A DNA stretch of 34,884 nt, taken from Crocinitomicaceae bacterium. GTDB taxonomy: Bacteria; Bacteroidota; Bacteroidia; Flavobacteriales_D; Crocinitomicaceae. Shown one piece after another: positions 9,925 to 14,906 of the stretch. A program made the position numbers and the translations under genes. Below the pieces are notes generated by a model. The model ran no database searches, was not told the origin of the DNA, and saw nothing but the letters and a program-made list of their open reading frames with translations. The first letter of the stretch is position 1. Each line of letters opens with the position of its first letter. The stretch lies in contig QKAV01000043.1 of NCBI GenBank assembly GCA_003247185.1, positions 1 to 34,884 of the forward strand, written 5' to 3'.

Positions 9925-10536
9925 TTACTTCTCTTTTTCTTCTGAGTCATCCTCAGCTTTAGGCTCTTCAGTAGCTTCCTCTTCACTTGAAGTCTCTGCT
10001 TCCTCAGCAACTGTCTCCTCAACAACTTCTGCTTCTGCTACTGTTTCTTCACCAGCTACTTCATCAGTTGTTTCCTCAGTTACAGTCTCTTCAACCGCTG
10101 CTTCAGGAGCAGCTGTCTTAACACCACCTCTACGTGAACGACGAGTTGTTTTCTTAGCCTTATCATTTGTGTATAGTTCGTTGAAGTCAACCAACTCGAT
10201 CATACACATTTCTGCATTATCTCCCAAACGATATCCTGTACGAATGATACGTGTATATCCTCCCGGACGATCTGCAATCTTAGGCGCAACTTCTCTGAAC
10301 AATTCAGTTACAGCATTCTTGTTTTGCAATTCACTGAATACAATACGACGTGAGTGAGTTGAATCTGTTTTTGACTTTGTCAAAAGTGGTTCAATGTAAA
10401 CTCTCAACGCCTTTGCCTTAGCAACCGTTGTATTGATTCTTTTGTGCTCGATCAAAGAACAAGCCATGTTAGAAAGCATTGCTTTTCTGTGCGCTGCTTT
10501 ACGACCTAAGTGGTTAATTTTCTTACCGTGTCTCAT
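9925..10536 (-). CDS. rplQ: 50S ribosomal protein L17 with long acidic C-terminal tail
   Basis: Residues 1-122 are a normal L17 ([20 protein letters not shown] start, [15 protein letters not shown] near 97-110), which binds 23S rRNA at the exit-tunnel side of the large subunit. The protein then continues through a basic linker (about 124-140) into a tail of about 60 residues rich in Glu, Val, Thr and Ala, in which nearly half the residues are acidic (total 203 against about 120-130 in E. coli). The tail is low complexity and probably disordered; its function is unknown. It is the last gene of the superoperon, separated from rpoA by an unusually long 92-base structured spacer and followed by a strong terminator. 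Confidence 0.97.
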
Positions 10537-10558
10537 TTTGTAAAATTTCGTAAGTAAC

Positions 10559-10629
10559 GGTTAGCTGGATTGTGTATCGCCCAAAGCCAGCCACCTATTA
10601 CGCCATTGTTATTAAATTATCAGCGATAC
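10559..10629 (-). promoter_or_regulatory. Structured rpoA-rplQ spacer, candidate pseudoknot regulatory RNA
   Basis: In the transcript a stem forms between bases 10587-10595 and 10559-10568 (nine pairs with one bulge and one wobble), closing an 18-base loop. That loop holds GCGATAC (minus-strand reading of 10580-10574), which is perfectly complementary to GTATCGC (10629-10623) at the rpoA stop codon. Loop-to-upstream pairing would make a pseudoknot just before rplQ. No T run follows, so it is not a terminator. Confidence 0.5.
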
Positions 10630-11621
10630 TAGTCTTTATCTAATTTGTATTTAGAAACATTCATTCCGAAAGAAAGACCTTTGTTCTCTACAAGATCCTC
10701 CAACTCCGTTAATGATTTTTTACCGAAGTTTCTGAATTTCAACAGATCATTCTTATTGTAAGAAACCAAATCACCAAGTGTTTCTACATCTGCAGCTTTA
10801 AGACAGTTCAGTGCACGAACAGAAAGATCCATGTCCACTAGTTTTGTCTTAAGCAACTGACGCATGTGCAATGAAGTTTCATCAAATTCTTCTGTTTCAG
10901 CTTTCACTTCGCTATCAAGTGTGATACGCTCATCAGAGAACAACATGAAGTGATGAATAAGAATCTTCGCTGCTTCTTTCAAAGCATCTTTCGGATGAAT
11001 TGAACCATCTGTTGTAATGTCGAAGATCAATTTTTCGTAATCGGTCTTTTGCTCAACACGATAGTTTTCAATCGCATACTTTACGTTCTTGATCGGAGTA
11101 AAGATAGAGTCGATTGCAATTGTTCCGAAAGGAGCATTTTCATCTCTGTTTTCCTCTGCCGGATAGTATCCGCGACCTTTGATGATCTTCAATTCGATCT
11201 CTAACTTCACAGAAGATTCCATGTTACAAATAACAAGATCCGGATTCAATACCTGGAAAGCTGAGGTGAATCTACCGATATCACCAGCTGTCAATTGCTC
11301 TTGTCCTGATACTGTTACTACAACAGTCTCGCTATCTGTTCCATCGATTTGTTGTTTGAAACGTACTTGTTTCAAGTTCAAAACGATTTCAGTAACATCT
11401 TCTACTACTCCTTTGATTGTAGAGAATTCGTGATCAACACCTTCGATTCTAACCGAAGCGATCGCAAAACCTTCAAGTGAAGAAAGAAGGATACGACGCA
11501 ATGCGTTTCCTACAGTGATACCATATCCTGGCTCCAATGGACGGAATTCAAATTGTCCCTGGTGCTCATCGGACTGGATCATAATCACTTTGTCCGGTTT
11601 TTGAAAGTCTAAAATTGCCAT
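10629..11621 (-). CDS. rpoA: DNA-directed RNA polymerase alpha subunit
   Basis: The alpha dimer is the assembly platform for beta and beta' and contacts upstream DNA and activators. 330 residues, normal. The N-terminal domain carries the dimerisation segment ([16 protein letters not shown], about 36-51); a short acidic linker (about 245) leads to the C-terminal domain with the helix-hairpin-helix-like stretch [20 protein letters not shown] and the [13 protein letters not shown] segment (about 268-312) that bind DNA and regulators. It lies between rpsD and rplQ as in the alpha operon elsewhere. Both flanking spacers are long and structured, which would allow its output to be set apart from the ribosomal genes. 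Confidence 0.98.
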
Positions 11622-11645
11622 TTTGTTTTCTTCTTTTTAATTGTC

Positions 11646-11701
11646 CCCCGGTTGCGCGGTCTGACAGATTGAAGAAAGTCTATCAGACCCTTTGGCCAGG
11701 G
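11646..11701 (-). promoter_or_regulatory. Structured rpsD-rpoA spacer, two-tier stem
   Basis: Bases 11679-11689 pair with 11658-11668 over 11 positions (one G-U) around a 10-base loop. An outer stem of six pairs joins 11696-11701 with 11646-11651. The structure ends about 24 bases before the rpoA ATG. No T run follows directly, so terminator function is unlikely; a protein-binding or processing site is more probable. Confidence 0.55.
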
Positions 11702-11718
11702 TTCAATGTTGTTAATTA

Positions 11719-12324
11719 TTATTTCGAGTAAAGCTCGACGATTAGTTGTTCCTTAATGTTTTCAGGAATCATTTCTCTTGAAGGAAGAGCAACCATTTTA
11801 CCTTCCATTTGAGAAGGATTCCACTCTAACCAGTCAAAAGATTTAGTACTTGAAGCTAATGAGTTATTGATTGCTTCAAGAGATTTTGATTTCTCACGAA
11901 CTCCAATAACATCACCTACTTTCAAAGAATAAGAAGGAATGTTTACTACTTCTCCGTTCACTGTAATGTGTTTGTGAGATACAAACTGACGCGCAGCTCT
12001 TCTCGTAGGAGCAATCCCTAAACGGAACACTGTGTTATCCAAACGAGCTTCACACAATTGAAGTAGGTTCTCACCCGTAATTCCCTTCATACGTGATGCT
12101 TTGTCGAACATGTTAGCAAATTGACGCTCAAGGATACCGTAAGTATACTTTGCTTTTTGCTTTTCACCCAACTGAATCGCGTATTCAGATTGTTTACCTC
12201 TACGCTTATTTGGTCCATGTTGACCTGGTCCGTAGCTTCTTCTTTCTAACGCTTTATCCGGTCCAAAAATTGGATCTCTAAAACGACGCGCGATGCGCGA
12301 TTTTGGTCCTCTATATCTTGCCAT
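11719..12324 (-). CDS. rpsD: 30S ribosomal protein S4
   Basis: Primary 16S rRNA binder that starts assembly of the 30S body and lines the mRNA entry site. 201 residues, normal. It starts [15 protein letters not shown], has the conserved [24 protein letters not shown] region, and an S4 RNA-binding domain (about 92-155: [35 protein letters not shown]). There are no N-terminal zinc cysteines, so it is the zinc-free form. In E. coli, S4 represses its own operon by binding a pseudoknot. Here the spacers on both sides of rpsD are long and folded, which would fit a similar autoregulatory role, but that is inference. Confidence 0.98.
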
Positions 12325-12337
12325 TTGTTATTTTTTT

Positions 12338-12394
12338 GGATCACATCATGAATTAAGGCTTACTCCTTCGATGATGCCCAGCGGGTAAAGATCC
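12338..12394 (-). promoter_or_regulatory. Structured rpsK-rpsD spacer, nested three-part stem
   Basis: Three nested pairings lie in one spacer: GATCC (12390-12394) with GGATC (12338-12342), ATGATG (12371-12376) with CATCAT (12344-12349), and CCTT (12365-12368) with AAGG (12355-12358). The last arm ends 13 bases before the rpsD ATG. Candidate autoregulatory site upstream of S4; I recall a Bacteroidia S4 leader candidate in the literature but cannot test membership here. Confidence 0.5.
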
Positions 12395-12407
12395 GTTTTG
12401 TTATTTA

Positions 12408-12794
12408 TTAAACTCTTCTTCGTTTTGGTGGACGACATCCGTTGTGCGGAAGCGGAGTAACATCAACGATTTCAGTTACCTCAATTCCAGCGTTGTGAAG
12501 TGAACGGATAGCAGACTCACGTCCAGCTCCTGGTCCTTTCACATACACTTTAACTTTACGTAGTCCGAAGTCACGAGCTTCATTTGCTGCATCCTCAGCC
12601 GCAACCTGTGCAGCATAAGGAGTGTTCTTTTTAGAACCTCTGAAGCCCATCTTTCCAGCCGATGACCAAGAAATTACCTGACCAGCGTTGTTTGTCAAAG
12701 AAATAATGATATTGTTGAAGGTAGCTTGAATATGCGCTTCACCAATAGCATCTACTTTGACATTCTTCTTCTTTTTTGCGTTAGACTTTGCCAT
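12408..12794 (-). CDS. rpsK: 30S ribosomal protein S11
   Basis: Platform protein of the 30S subunit near the mRNA exit and E site. 128 residues, normal, with a Lys-rich start ([19 protein letters not shown]), the [20 protein letters not shown] strand region and the conserved C-terminal [18 protein letters not shown]. The order rpsM-rpsK-rpsD-rpoA-rplQ is the classic alpha operon. It follows rpsM by 37 bases and is followed by the first of three long structured spacers (83 bases). Confidence 0.98.
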
Positions 12795-12831
12795 TATTTA
12801 GCTTTTGATTAATTCAATTATTACTTACGAA

Positions 12832-13197
12832 TTACTTTTTCTTATTCGCAACTGTCTTTCTCTTACCTTTACGAGTACGAGAGTTGTTCTTCGTTCTTTG
12901 TCCGCGTAATGGAAGACCAGCTCTGTGTCGAATACCACGTTGGCATCCGATATCCATCAATCGCTTAATGTTCAACTGTACTTCTGAACGCAATGCTCCT
13001 TCAACTTTAATTTCATTGATTGCATTACGAATATCAGCAAGTTGGTCATCATTCCAATCCTGAACTTTGATGTTTTCATCAATACCAGCTGCAGCAAGAA
13101 TTTTCTGTGCTGTGCTTCTTCCGATTCCGTAGATGTATGTCAAACCGATTACACCTCTTTTATTTTTTGGTAAATCAATACCTGCAATACGTGCCAT
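12832..13197 (-). CDS. rpsM: 30S ribosomal protein S13
   Basis: Head protein of the 30S subunit that contacts the P-site tRNA and, through its N-terminal half, the 50S subunit (bridge B1). 121 residues, normal. It begins [26 protein letters not shown] and has the helix-two-turn-helix region, and the RNA-contacting tail [22 protein letters not shown] followed by Lys residues. Ten bases after rpmJ. Confidence 0.98.
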
Positions 13198-13207
13198 ATT
13201 CTAAAGA

Positions 13208-13324
13208 TTATCCTTGTCTTTGTTTAAACTTCGGGTTCTTTTTGTTAATCACATAAACCCGCCCTTTACGTTTAACGATCTTACAATCAGCAGATCGTTT
13301 TTTAACTGATGCTCTTACTTTCAT
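13208..13324 (-). CDS. rpmJ: 50S ribosomal protein L36, zinc-free type
   Basis: A 38-residue protein found by reading the gap between infA and rpsM: it starts [20 protein letters not shown] and ends NPKFKQRQG. The MKVRASVKK start and KQRQG end are diagnostic of L36, which binds 23S rRNA in the large subunit. Zinc-binding L36 proteins use a C-C-C-H set; here only Cys14 remains, the others being Ser11, Asn27 and Phe33, so it is the C-minus form that does not bind zinc. It starts at ATG 13324, 19 bases after infA, and precedes rpsM by 10 bases. Confidence 0.95.
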
Positions 13325-13343
13325 CTTTTTTCTTTTTGTTAGA

Positions 13344-13562
13344 TCACTTGTATCTAAATGTTATTCTACCCTTTGTTAAATCATAAGGGCTCATTTCAAC
13401 TTTCACTTTATCTCCAGGAAGAATCTTAATGTAGTACATTCTCATTTTTCCTGAAATGTGAGCAGTGATAACATGCCCGTTTTCTAGTTCCACTCTAAAC
13501 ATTGCGTTTGACAATGCTTCGATGATCACTCCATCCTGTTCAATTGAAGACTGCTTCGCCAT
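13344..13562 (-). CDS. infA: Translation initiation factor IF-1
   Basis: Binds the 30S A site and helps IF-2 and IF-3 select the initiator tRNA. 72 residues, exactly the usual length, an OB fold of the S1 type: [20 protein letters not shown] start, [20 protein letters not shown] core, and [11 protein letters not shown] end. It lies three bases after secY, with no map or adk gene between as in many other bacteria; rpmJ follows. Confidence 0.98.
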
Positions 13563-13565
13563 AAA

Positions 13566-14906
13566 TTAAAAACCTGATAATTCGTTTTGAGTTCTTCTTC
13601 CTTTGATACGGGTTCCTTCCATCAAACCATCCATGTGTCGGTTCAACAAATATGATTCAATTTGCTGAAGTGTATCCAAAACAACACCGACCATGATAAG
13701 GAGAGAAGTACCTCCGAAGAACATGGCAAAAGCGTCATTTACTCCAGCCATCTTAGCAATGGCAGGAATAATTGCAATCATCGCCAGGAACAATGATCCC
13801 GGGAAAGTGATACGAGAAACTAATGAATCAATATAGTGTGCAGTTTCTTCTCCCGGGCGAACACCTGGAATAAAACCACCACTTCTTTTCAAATCATCCG
13901 CAATCTTACGTGGGTTAATCATAATTGCAGTGTAGAAATACGTGAAGACAATGATCAACACGGCTAACGCTACATTATAACCTACTCCATAAATATTACC
14001 GAAGATTTTAGATAAGAATCCGCTTTCACCGCCTCCGCTGAATAACATGATAGGAACAGTCATGATTGCTTGTGCAAAGATGATTGGCATTACCCCGGAA
14101 GCATTTACCTTGATCGGTAAATAATTTCTGGCACCTTGTTCTTCAGCTGCTCTTGCTCCGGCAACGCGCTTAGCTGTATTCAGAGGAATTTTTCTAACCC
14201 CCTGAACAATAAGTACTGTTCCAAGTACAACCGTCATAAACACAACGATCTCCAGAACAATCTTAATCAGGTTTCCTGATTCAACAGAGAAACCAAATTC
14301 AGCCATAAACGCTCCTGGCAGACGAGACAAGATTCCCACAGTAATCAATAGGGAAATACCATTTCCTATTCCTTTATCTGTGATTCTCTCACCTAACCAA
14401 ACCGCAAACATAGATCCGGCTACCATAACAATAATCGATTGAGTCCACCAGAATGTAGTTGCATCTACAGGAAGTGCTCCCTTGTTTTGCACATACAAAG
14501 TCAAGTAACTTGGCGCTTGCAGTGCACAAATGATAATTGTAAGGATTCTTGTATAATTATTGATCAACTTTCTTCCACTTTCTCCTTCATTCTGCATTTT
14601 TTGTACAGCCGGAACAGCCATACCTAATAATTGCATAATGATTGAAGCTGAGATATACGGCATAATACCTAATGCCATGATTGAAGCATTTGTAAATCCA
14701 CCTCCCGAGAAAAGAGAAAGAAGAGTTTCTAGCATATTCTGGTCACCTGCCTTTTGTGCTTCTACCAATGCGGTATAATTCACTCCGGGAAGGATAATGA
14801 AATTTCCAATTCGATAAACCAGAATAAGGCCAAGCGTAAGCAATATACGCTTACGCAGTTCCTCAACTTTCCAGATGTTAGTTATATTTTTTATAAATCG
14901 TTTCAT
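13566..14906 (-). CDS. secY: Preprotein translocase channel subunit SecY
   Basis: Forms the protein-conducting channel in the inner membrane with SecE and SecG. 446 residues, normal, with about ten hydrophobic spans. Conserved points: RILLTLGLILVYRIGNFI (TM1), the plug region near ETLLSLFSGGGF, the TM2 segment with ALGIMPYISASIIMQLL, WLGERITDKGIGNGISLLI (cytoplasmic loop into TM5), and the late cytoplasmic loop MINPRKIADDLKRSGGFIPGVRPG where SecA and ribosomes dock. It sits at the end of the spc cluster after rplO, as is usual, which ties channel supply to ribosome supply. Confidence 0.98.
   Translation of the reverse strand: MKRFIKNITNIWKVEELRKRILLTLGLILVYRIGNFIILPGVNYTALVEAQKAGDQNMLETLLSLFSGGGFTNASIMALGIMPYISASIIMQLLGMAVPAVQKMQNEGESGRKLINNYTRILTIIICALQAPSYLTLYVQNKGALPVDATTFWWTQSIIVMVAGSMFAVWLGERITDKGIGNGISLLITVGILSRLPGAFMAEFGFSVESGNLIKIVLEIVVFMTVVLGTVLIVQGVRKIPLNTAKRVAGARAAEEQGARNYLPIKVNASGVMPIIFAQAIMTVPIMLFSGGGESGFLSKIFGNIYGVGYNVALAVLIIVFTYFYTAIMINPRKIADDLKRSGGFIPGVRPGEETAHYIDSLVSRITFPGSLFLAMIAIIPAIAKMAGVNDAFAMFFGGTSLLIMVGVVLDTLQQIESYLLNRHMDGLMEGTRIKGRRTQNELSGF

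Follow-up and report, generated by a model that had tools for sequence, protein, structure and literature searches.

The window, that is the whole stretch of 34,884 nucleotides analyzed from contig QKAV01000043.1 of a Crocinitomicaceae bacterium (assembly GCA_003247185.1), displays on its minus strand an operon with the order rpsM, rpsK, rpsD, spacer, rpoA, spacer and rplQ. rpsD is at positions 11719–12324, rpoA at positions 10629–11621 and rplQ at positions 9925–10536, all on the minus strand. The rpsD-rpoA spacer in its entirety (positions 11622–11718, minus strand) is termed element A here, on the basis of its fold and a covariance model match. Since element A starts directly after the rpsD stop codon, a shared transcript with the element in its interior is most likely. 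The gene immediately downstream, rpoA, is its presumed target; rplQ, a carA-like gene and eno follow.

A first-pass annotation of this DNA had described a two-tier stem at positions 11646–11701, i.e. 11 pairs with a 10-base loop inside a stem of 6 pairs. Folding of the minus strand confirms this arrangement: there is an outer stem of 6 pairs, a 6 × 6 internal loop, an inner stem of 11 pairs and a loop of 10 bases, with an energy of −26.7 kcal/mol (z = −4.67) that was equaled in 0 of 200 shuffles. The strand had been left unstated. The hairpin is real, but the transcript is the minus strand and the plus strand folds less well (−24.6 kcal/mol, z = −3.83, 1 of 200 shuffles equal). The fold of the full 97-base spacer on the minus strand (−31.4 kcal/mol, z = −5.80, 0 of 200 shuffles equal) also gains a basal stem of 4 pairs, ATTG/CAAT. 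As the annotation had it, 24 bases lie between the end of the outer stem and the rpoA ATG, and no T run follows; the tail is A-rich. A terminator scan gave no minus-strand site in the spacer and one plus-strand site, at positions 11686–11703. Element A does not have the form of an intrinsic terminator.

The 5′ arm of the basal stem (P0), ATTG, is at positions 11704–11707 and its 3′ arm, CAAT, at 11640–11643. The outer stem (P1) is formed by positions 11696–11701 and 11646–11651, and the inner stem (P2) by positions 11679–11689 and 11658–11668. Between P1 and P2 is the internal loop, with CCAAAG as its 5′ strand (positions 11690–11695) and GCGCAA as its 3′ strand (positions 11652–11657). The apical loop has the sequence TTCTTC at positions 11671–11676, and its predicted pairing partner, GAAGAA, is upstream of the rpoA ATG at positions 11628–11633. 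All of these are on the minus strand. The basal stem, the near invariance of the internal loop, the complementarity of the apical loop to the rpoA start region and the start-masking pseudoknot predicted from it go beyond what the first-pass annotation had noticed.

Conservation and covariation of element A

A first alignment of 34 elements, the window's included, was made by MAFFT and was not fitted to a covariance model. In this alignment 16 of the 27 proposed pairs are doubly changed, and 117 cells are doubly changed, compared with 47.9 after shuffling (0 of 500 shuffles reached this number). The second alignment consists of 100 distinct relatives aligned to the covariance model and is hence biased towards the model. 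Here 91.5% of cells are paired compared with 79.4% in shuffles, 17 of 26 pairs are doubly changed, and the doubly changed cells number 378, compared with 113.5 after shuffling and 31–63 when the partner is slid. By the first-pass annotation, sequence conservation lacking compensating changes would have spoken against its view; this is not what the relatives show, and the structure is not due to chance. On the evidence of sequence comparison, element A is a selected, covarying RNA structure and is more than a strong hairpin.

The support is spread over the three stems. All six pairs of P1 are doubly changed and 96.3% of its cells are paired among the relatives; for P2 these values are 10 of 11 pairs and 83.0%, and 98.5% of the P0 cells are paired in the 100 relatives. 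The stems have many G-U pairs, as expected of an RNA and not of a DNA palindrome. Mispairing affects two middle pairs of P2, one in 66 of 97 sequences and the other in 50 of 100. The perfect pairing of all 11 positions in the window's inner stem is thus a local extreme: it is present as first described, but it is not typical of the element.

The columns that are at least 97% identical in the 100 relatives are TTG/CAA of P0, CNAAAG and GCGCAA of the internal loop, TCTTCA of the apical loop and GAAG upstream of the start codon. The second C of the CCAAAG strand is variable in the alignments; the other bases of this strand, and the GCGCAA strand, are nearly invariant.

Occurrence in related genomes

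Among the first 110 loci compared, most rpsD-rpoA spacers were short or contained a clearly conserved element. Eight loci (L041, L042, L054, L055, L082, L084, L089 and L099) have spacers of 55–106 bases that are element-less. The median spacer length is 20 bases without the element and 96 bases with it.

A covariance model, R1, was built from the 34 aligned elements, among them the window sequence. R1 matches the window at positions 11621–11718 (106.7 bits, E-value = 3.8e-21), and this is the sole match at E ≤ 1 in its own genome. Within the family of the window, 41 of 100 genomes have R1 matches, the window's own included; rejection of one match leaves 40 of 100. The other 60 are without an accepted match (7 of the 100 are also without an rpsD match), and element A is therefore dispensable. 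The rejected match, in genome G037, was considered as a second genomic copy; it scores 31.1 bits and ends within a reading frame that we take to be RlmH, and it was set aside as a chance match.

At the order level 70 of 306 genomes have a match, with the window's own genome and the same rejected match counted, and at the phylum level 7 of 392, the own genome again counted. A scan of family f16, which we take to be Flavobacteriaceae from the placement of its rows with named ones in the tree, gave 96 of 299 genomes. In these three scans the lower limit of genome completeness was 85 or 90%; the samples overlap, and the stricter filters used for large scans can lose weak matches. Each of the positive genomes listed has one match. 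The element is flanked by rpsD and the rpoA ATG in 167 of the 168 model-match loci read (L112–L279), the exception being the rejected match. Thus element A is found at a constant position across at least three families. Carriage by phage was also considered: 11 pattern matches were present in viral contigs, and 0 of them were backed by the model (there was one unrelated match of 16.3 bits).

A quick RpsD plus RpoA tree of 130 chosen rows, 55 of them with the element, requires at least 15 changes of presence on the best tree, 7 of which are forced by well-supported branches, compared with approximately 42 when labels are shuffled. The presence of element A is patchy; it is mostly inherited and has been repeatedly lost or regained. 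Two near-sister genomes of Aequorivita (L067 and L076) differ in that only one of them has the element. Fluviicola chungangensis and Polaribacter aestuariivivens are among the element-bearing species, and the Flavobacterium loci that were read are without the element.

The lack of an accepted match in 60 of 100 sampled family genomes is what one might expect of a chance hairpin, or of a purely structural insulating hairpin with no specific function. That reading is already contradicted by the covariation and by nearly invariant loops kept in one place in at least three families, and it is extremely improbable.

Predicted pairing of the apical loop with the rpoA start

The TCTTC of the apical loop is complementary to a GAAGA that ends 3–10 bases 5′ of the rpoA ATG (180 elements). 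Among element-bearing loci, 201 of 202 have GAAGA within the final 18 spacer bases, compared with 3 of 76 loci without the element (duplicate loci counted). The single element-bearing exception carries GAAGG. The three element-less loci with GAAGA belong to Aquimarina and have short spacers. In these loci (L046, L047 and L053) the hairpin is absent and GAAGAA is kept before rpoA; the GAAGAA sequences are possibly relics of a deleted element. Some elements have apical loops with repeated TCTTCTTC.

The five core pairs of the predicted pseudoknot are never doubly changed in the 100 relatives, so the case for them is their invariance and their position. The sixth pair, at the edge, does covary. 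It is paired in 157 of 181 elements compared with 140.4 in shuffles, and is unpaired in 24 of 181. Nine elements are both paired and doubly changed at this pair, where 1.07 are expected (0 of 50000 shuffles as high, the shuffles ignoring relatedness). The variants come from few lineages: A-T and G-T are from one f1 clade, and G-C is from three f16 genera. Because of the small number of lineages and the neglect of relatedness in the shuffles, the edge-pair covariation is good but not decisive support for a pseudoknot.

By itself, a UUCUUC/GAAGAA duplex would be weak (five predicted pairs, −4.2 kcal/mol). The linker from the basal stem to GAAGA was parsed as 7 bases in 157 elements, 8 in 9, 6 in 8 and 3 in 7 (181 elements; the 3-base cases are probably parsing slips). 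A linker of about 7 bases would be too short to reach the apical loop unless the hairpin is bent at the internal loop, a bend that we infer. P0 and P1 together span 12 positions and P2 spans 11, and a sharp bend at the 6 × 6 loop would therefore bring the apical loop beside GAAGA.

Neighboring elements and possible control of rpoA

At E ≤ 5 the rpoA spacer has no match among the Rfam 15 families. At gathering scores the window yields a single known RNA, RF03141 (the S4-Flavobacteria leader), at positions 12344–12376 on the minus strand (44.4 bits), between rpsK and rpsD. Element A is not RF03141: the sole RF03141 match in the window is before rpsD, and the rpoA spacer has none at E ≤ 5. The two are alike in that, according to PMC7247131, RF03141 is a hairpin-based leader of the same operon in related bacteria. 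However, RF03141 is directly upstream of rpsD, spans 33 model positions and has a different sequence and structure, whereas element A is downstream of rpsD and precedes rpoA. A covarying conserved structure upstream of a gene of a ribosomal protein operon is one mark of r-leaders in general, and element A displays it; r-leaders are also bound by a ribosomal protein whose gene is downstream, and some resemble the rRNA site of their ligand. Among the titles and abstract openings listed from the open PMC literature, there was no paper on a leader RNA before rpoA in flavobacteria. Element A is a real RNA element that is absent from Rfam 15.

The best match to the E. coli S4 operator, Alpha_RBS (RF00140), is 16.9 bits at positions 13165–13204 (positions 10500–13700 scanned), compared with a gathering score of 38. 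As described in a review (PMC10931766), the E. coli operator is a pseudoknot over a cistron start in the S13-S11-S4-alpha-L17 operon, and in this it resembles element A, whose pseudoknot is predicted. It differs in acting at rpsM, with the alpha cistron unaffected. The same text cites Meek and Hayward (1984) for a proposed second S4 site before E. coli rplQ, for which it finds that strong evidence was not provided. That proposal likewise concerns a further internal operator, but before rplQ and not before rpoA.

Crude scans for mimicry of an rRNA site gave no clear excess of candidates over letter shuffles. In the rrn regions of two element-bearing genomes (16S placed by Rfam, 23S presumed to be within the scanned stretch), a crude scan for exact words gave 0 occurrences of CCAAAG and 1 of GCGCAAC in each. 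A similarly crude scan for the loop plus flanking helix with up to 3 mismatches gave 4 and 5 candidates, compared with shuffled means of 5.55 and 4.0. R1 scores at most 13.6 bits in 16S loci with their flanks.

By pattern, the S4 leader is present before rpsD in 143 of 200 loci with element A and in 45 of 75 without it; by Rfam, in 20 chosen loci, it is present in 7 of 9 and 7 of 11, respectively. Some relatives have other sequences at this place.

These data bear on the reading that element A is a second S4 operator, in which S4 would bind this hairpin too and would extend repression to rpoA and rplQ where a long spacer breaks translational coupling. The element is in the S4 operon immediately after rpsD, the E. 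coli counterpart is a pseudoknot at a start site (PMC10931766), and spacer medians of 20 and 96 bases mean that coupling could differ. However, element A does not match RF03141 at E ≤ 5, the S4 leader is present both with and without element A, and according to the same review repression by S4 in E. coli does not affect the alpha cistron, whose regulation is described as independent of S4. S4 had been put forward as a binder in the first-pass annotation. Nothing specific points to it: the known S4 leader is already before rpsD and does not match element A, and the crude scans gave no rRNA-like site. A second S4 operator is unlikely.

The rpoA-rplQ spacer (positions 10537–10628, minus strand) has another conserved structured element, termed type B1. 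Its stems are CGTAA/TTACG, GGT/ACC and GGCTGG/CCAGCT, and TATCGC and GCGATA could cross-pair. B1 has no Rfam match at E ≤ 5. Relatives have before rplQ either B1 or one of two dissimilar types, B2 and B3. RNAalifold structures of the rplQ elements have 93.8–98.8% of cells paired and 4–10 doubly changed pairs each, values that are without a shuffle control. By patterns that were widened after inspection of missed loci, an rplQ-proximal element is present in 191 of 198 loci with element A and in 13 of 76 without it (duplicate loci included); tighter patterns give 165 of 198 and 12 of 76. The rplQ-proximal elements are possibly L17 leaders. The same element A is found in both main groups, whereas the rplQ elements differ between the groups. 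The raw association of element A with the rplQ elements is strong, but relatedness may explain it: a comparison of element A with the S4 leader and the rplQ elements that was corrected for relatedness had 7 supported independent pairs, no significance and low power.

Element A itself might be an autoregulatory leader through which L17 acts on rpoA and rplQ. The gene after rpoA, rplQ, is the sole ribosomal protein gene among the downstream genes named, and seven element-bearing loci lack a recognized rplQ-proximal element. Against this, the separate element in the other 191 of the 198, of three dissimilar types, is a more natural target for L17 and is also present in 13 of 76 loci without element A. 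This reading is quite improbable.

The simplest reading is masking of the start by the pseudoknot together with a ligand at the internal loop. Element A is probably a cis-acting translational regulator of rpoA of this kind, a judgment drawn from comparative data and slightly lowered in view of the few lineages behind the pseudoknot edge. The transcript would fold into a long hairpin of P0, P1, the 6 × 6 internal loop and P2, and the apical-loop UCUUC would pair with GAAGA just 5′ of the rpoA AUG to form the pseudoknot. The pseudoknot would then block the 30S subunit at the rpoA start (a direction of control that we infer), and a putative ligand at the invariant internal loop would stabilize or release the fold. 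Synthesis of alpha could thereby be set independently of rpsD and rplQ. The first-pass view that the structure sets rpoA apart from rpsD fits with the anatomy, i.e. the position, the complementarity to the start, and the separate elements before rpsD and mostly before rplQ, by which rpoA appears to be separately served.

Since rpsD has its own S4 leader and rplQ mostly its own element, S4 and L17 would be less likely ligands, and alpha or an outside factor more likely. RpoA itself is a tentative guess, as is another protein or a metabolite; S4 is a rather unlikely candidate and L17 an improbable one. A more specific model, in which alpha binds the internal loop of its own mRNA, locks the start-masking pseudoknot and limits its own synthesis, with S4 and L17 each controlling its own cistron through the separate elements, is possible but doubtful. 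We know of no bacterial alpha subunit that is an autoregulatory RNA binder. Alpha nucleates RNA polymerase assembly, and autogenous control, if true, would be a feedback loop on the assembly scaffold of the core enzyme in bacteria without Shine-Dalgarno pairing.

rpoA sits among ribosomal protein genes, and an RNA acting on it would be a handle on the supply of polymerase versus ribosomes. Taken together, element A and the rplQ elements suggest that each cistron of the operon may have its own control. This would refine Table 1 of Eckert and Weinberg (2020, PMC7247131), where a single S4 leader is given with rpsD, rpoA and rplQ as its regulated genes. Bacteroidota ribosomes do not recognize Shine-Dalgarno sequences (PMC9976891), and initiation in F. 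johnsoniae is tuned by the secondary structure of the mRNA (PMC6847099). For this phylum, element A also offers a case in which structural control of translation can be studied.

At least 30 bases separate rpsD from the element in 31 of 181 cases. Six of these have a TAnnTTTG site, which resembles the Bacteroidota −7 motif, and some of the 31 hold terminator-like hairpins. Separate transcripts may exist where such hairpins or sites are upstream of the element, and this, together with the location of a long stem in the spacer, is consistent with a processing or stability site, i.e. a stem that is cut by a double-strand RNase or that blocks an exonuclease and gives the rpoA-rplQ mRNA a half-life of its own. 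Such a site needs no invariant internal loop, no apical TCTTCA and no GAAGA in a nearly fixed place before the ATG, and P2 is often broken by mismatches. Nothing points to RNase processing, which the first-pass annotation had also suggested, and a processing site is improbable as the explanation of element A.

A small hairpin with GATGCGTTAGCATC recurs immediately 3′ of the rpsD stop codon in loci L006, L119, L127, L143 and L156. In some relatives this hairpin is followed by a terminator-like hairpin and then by the rpoA element.
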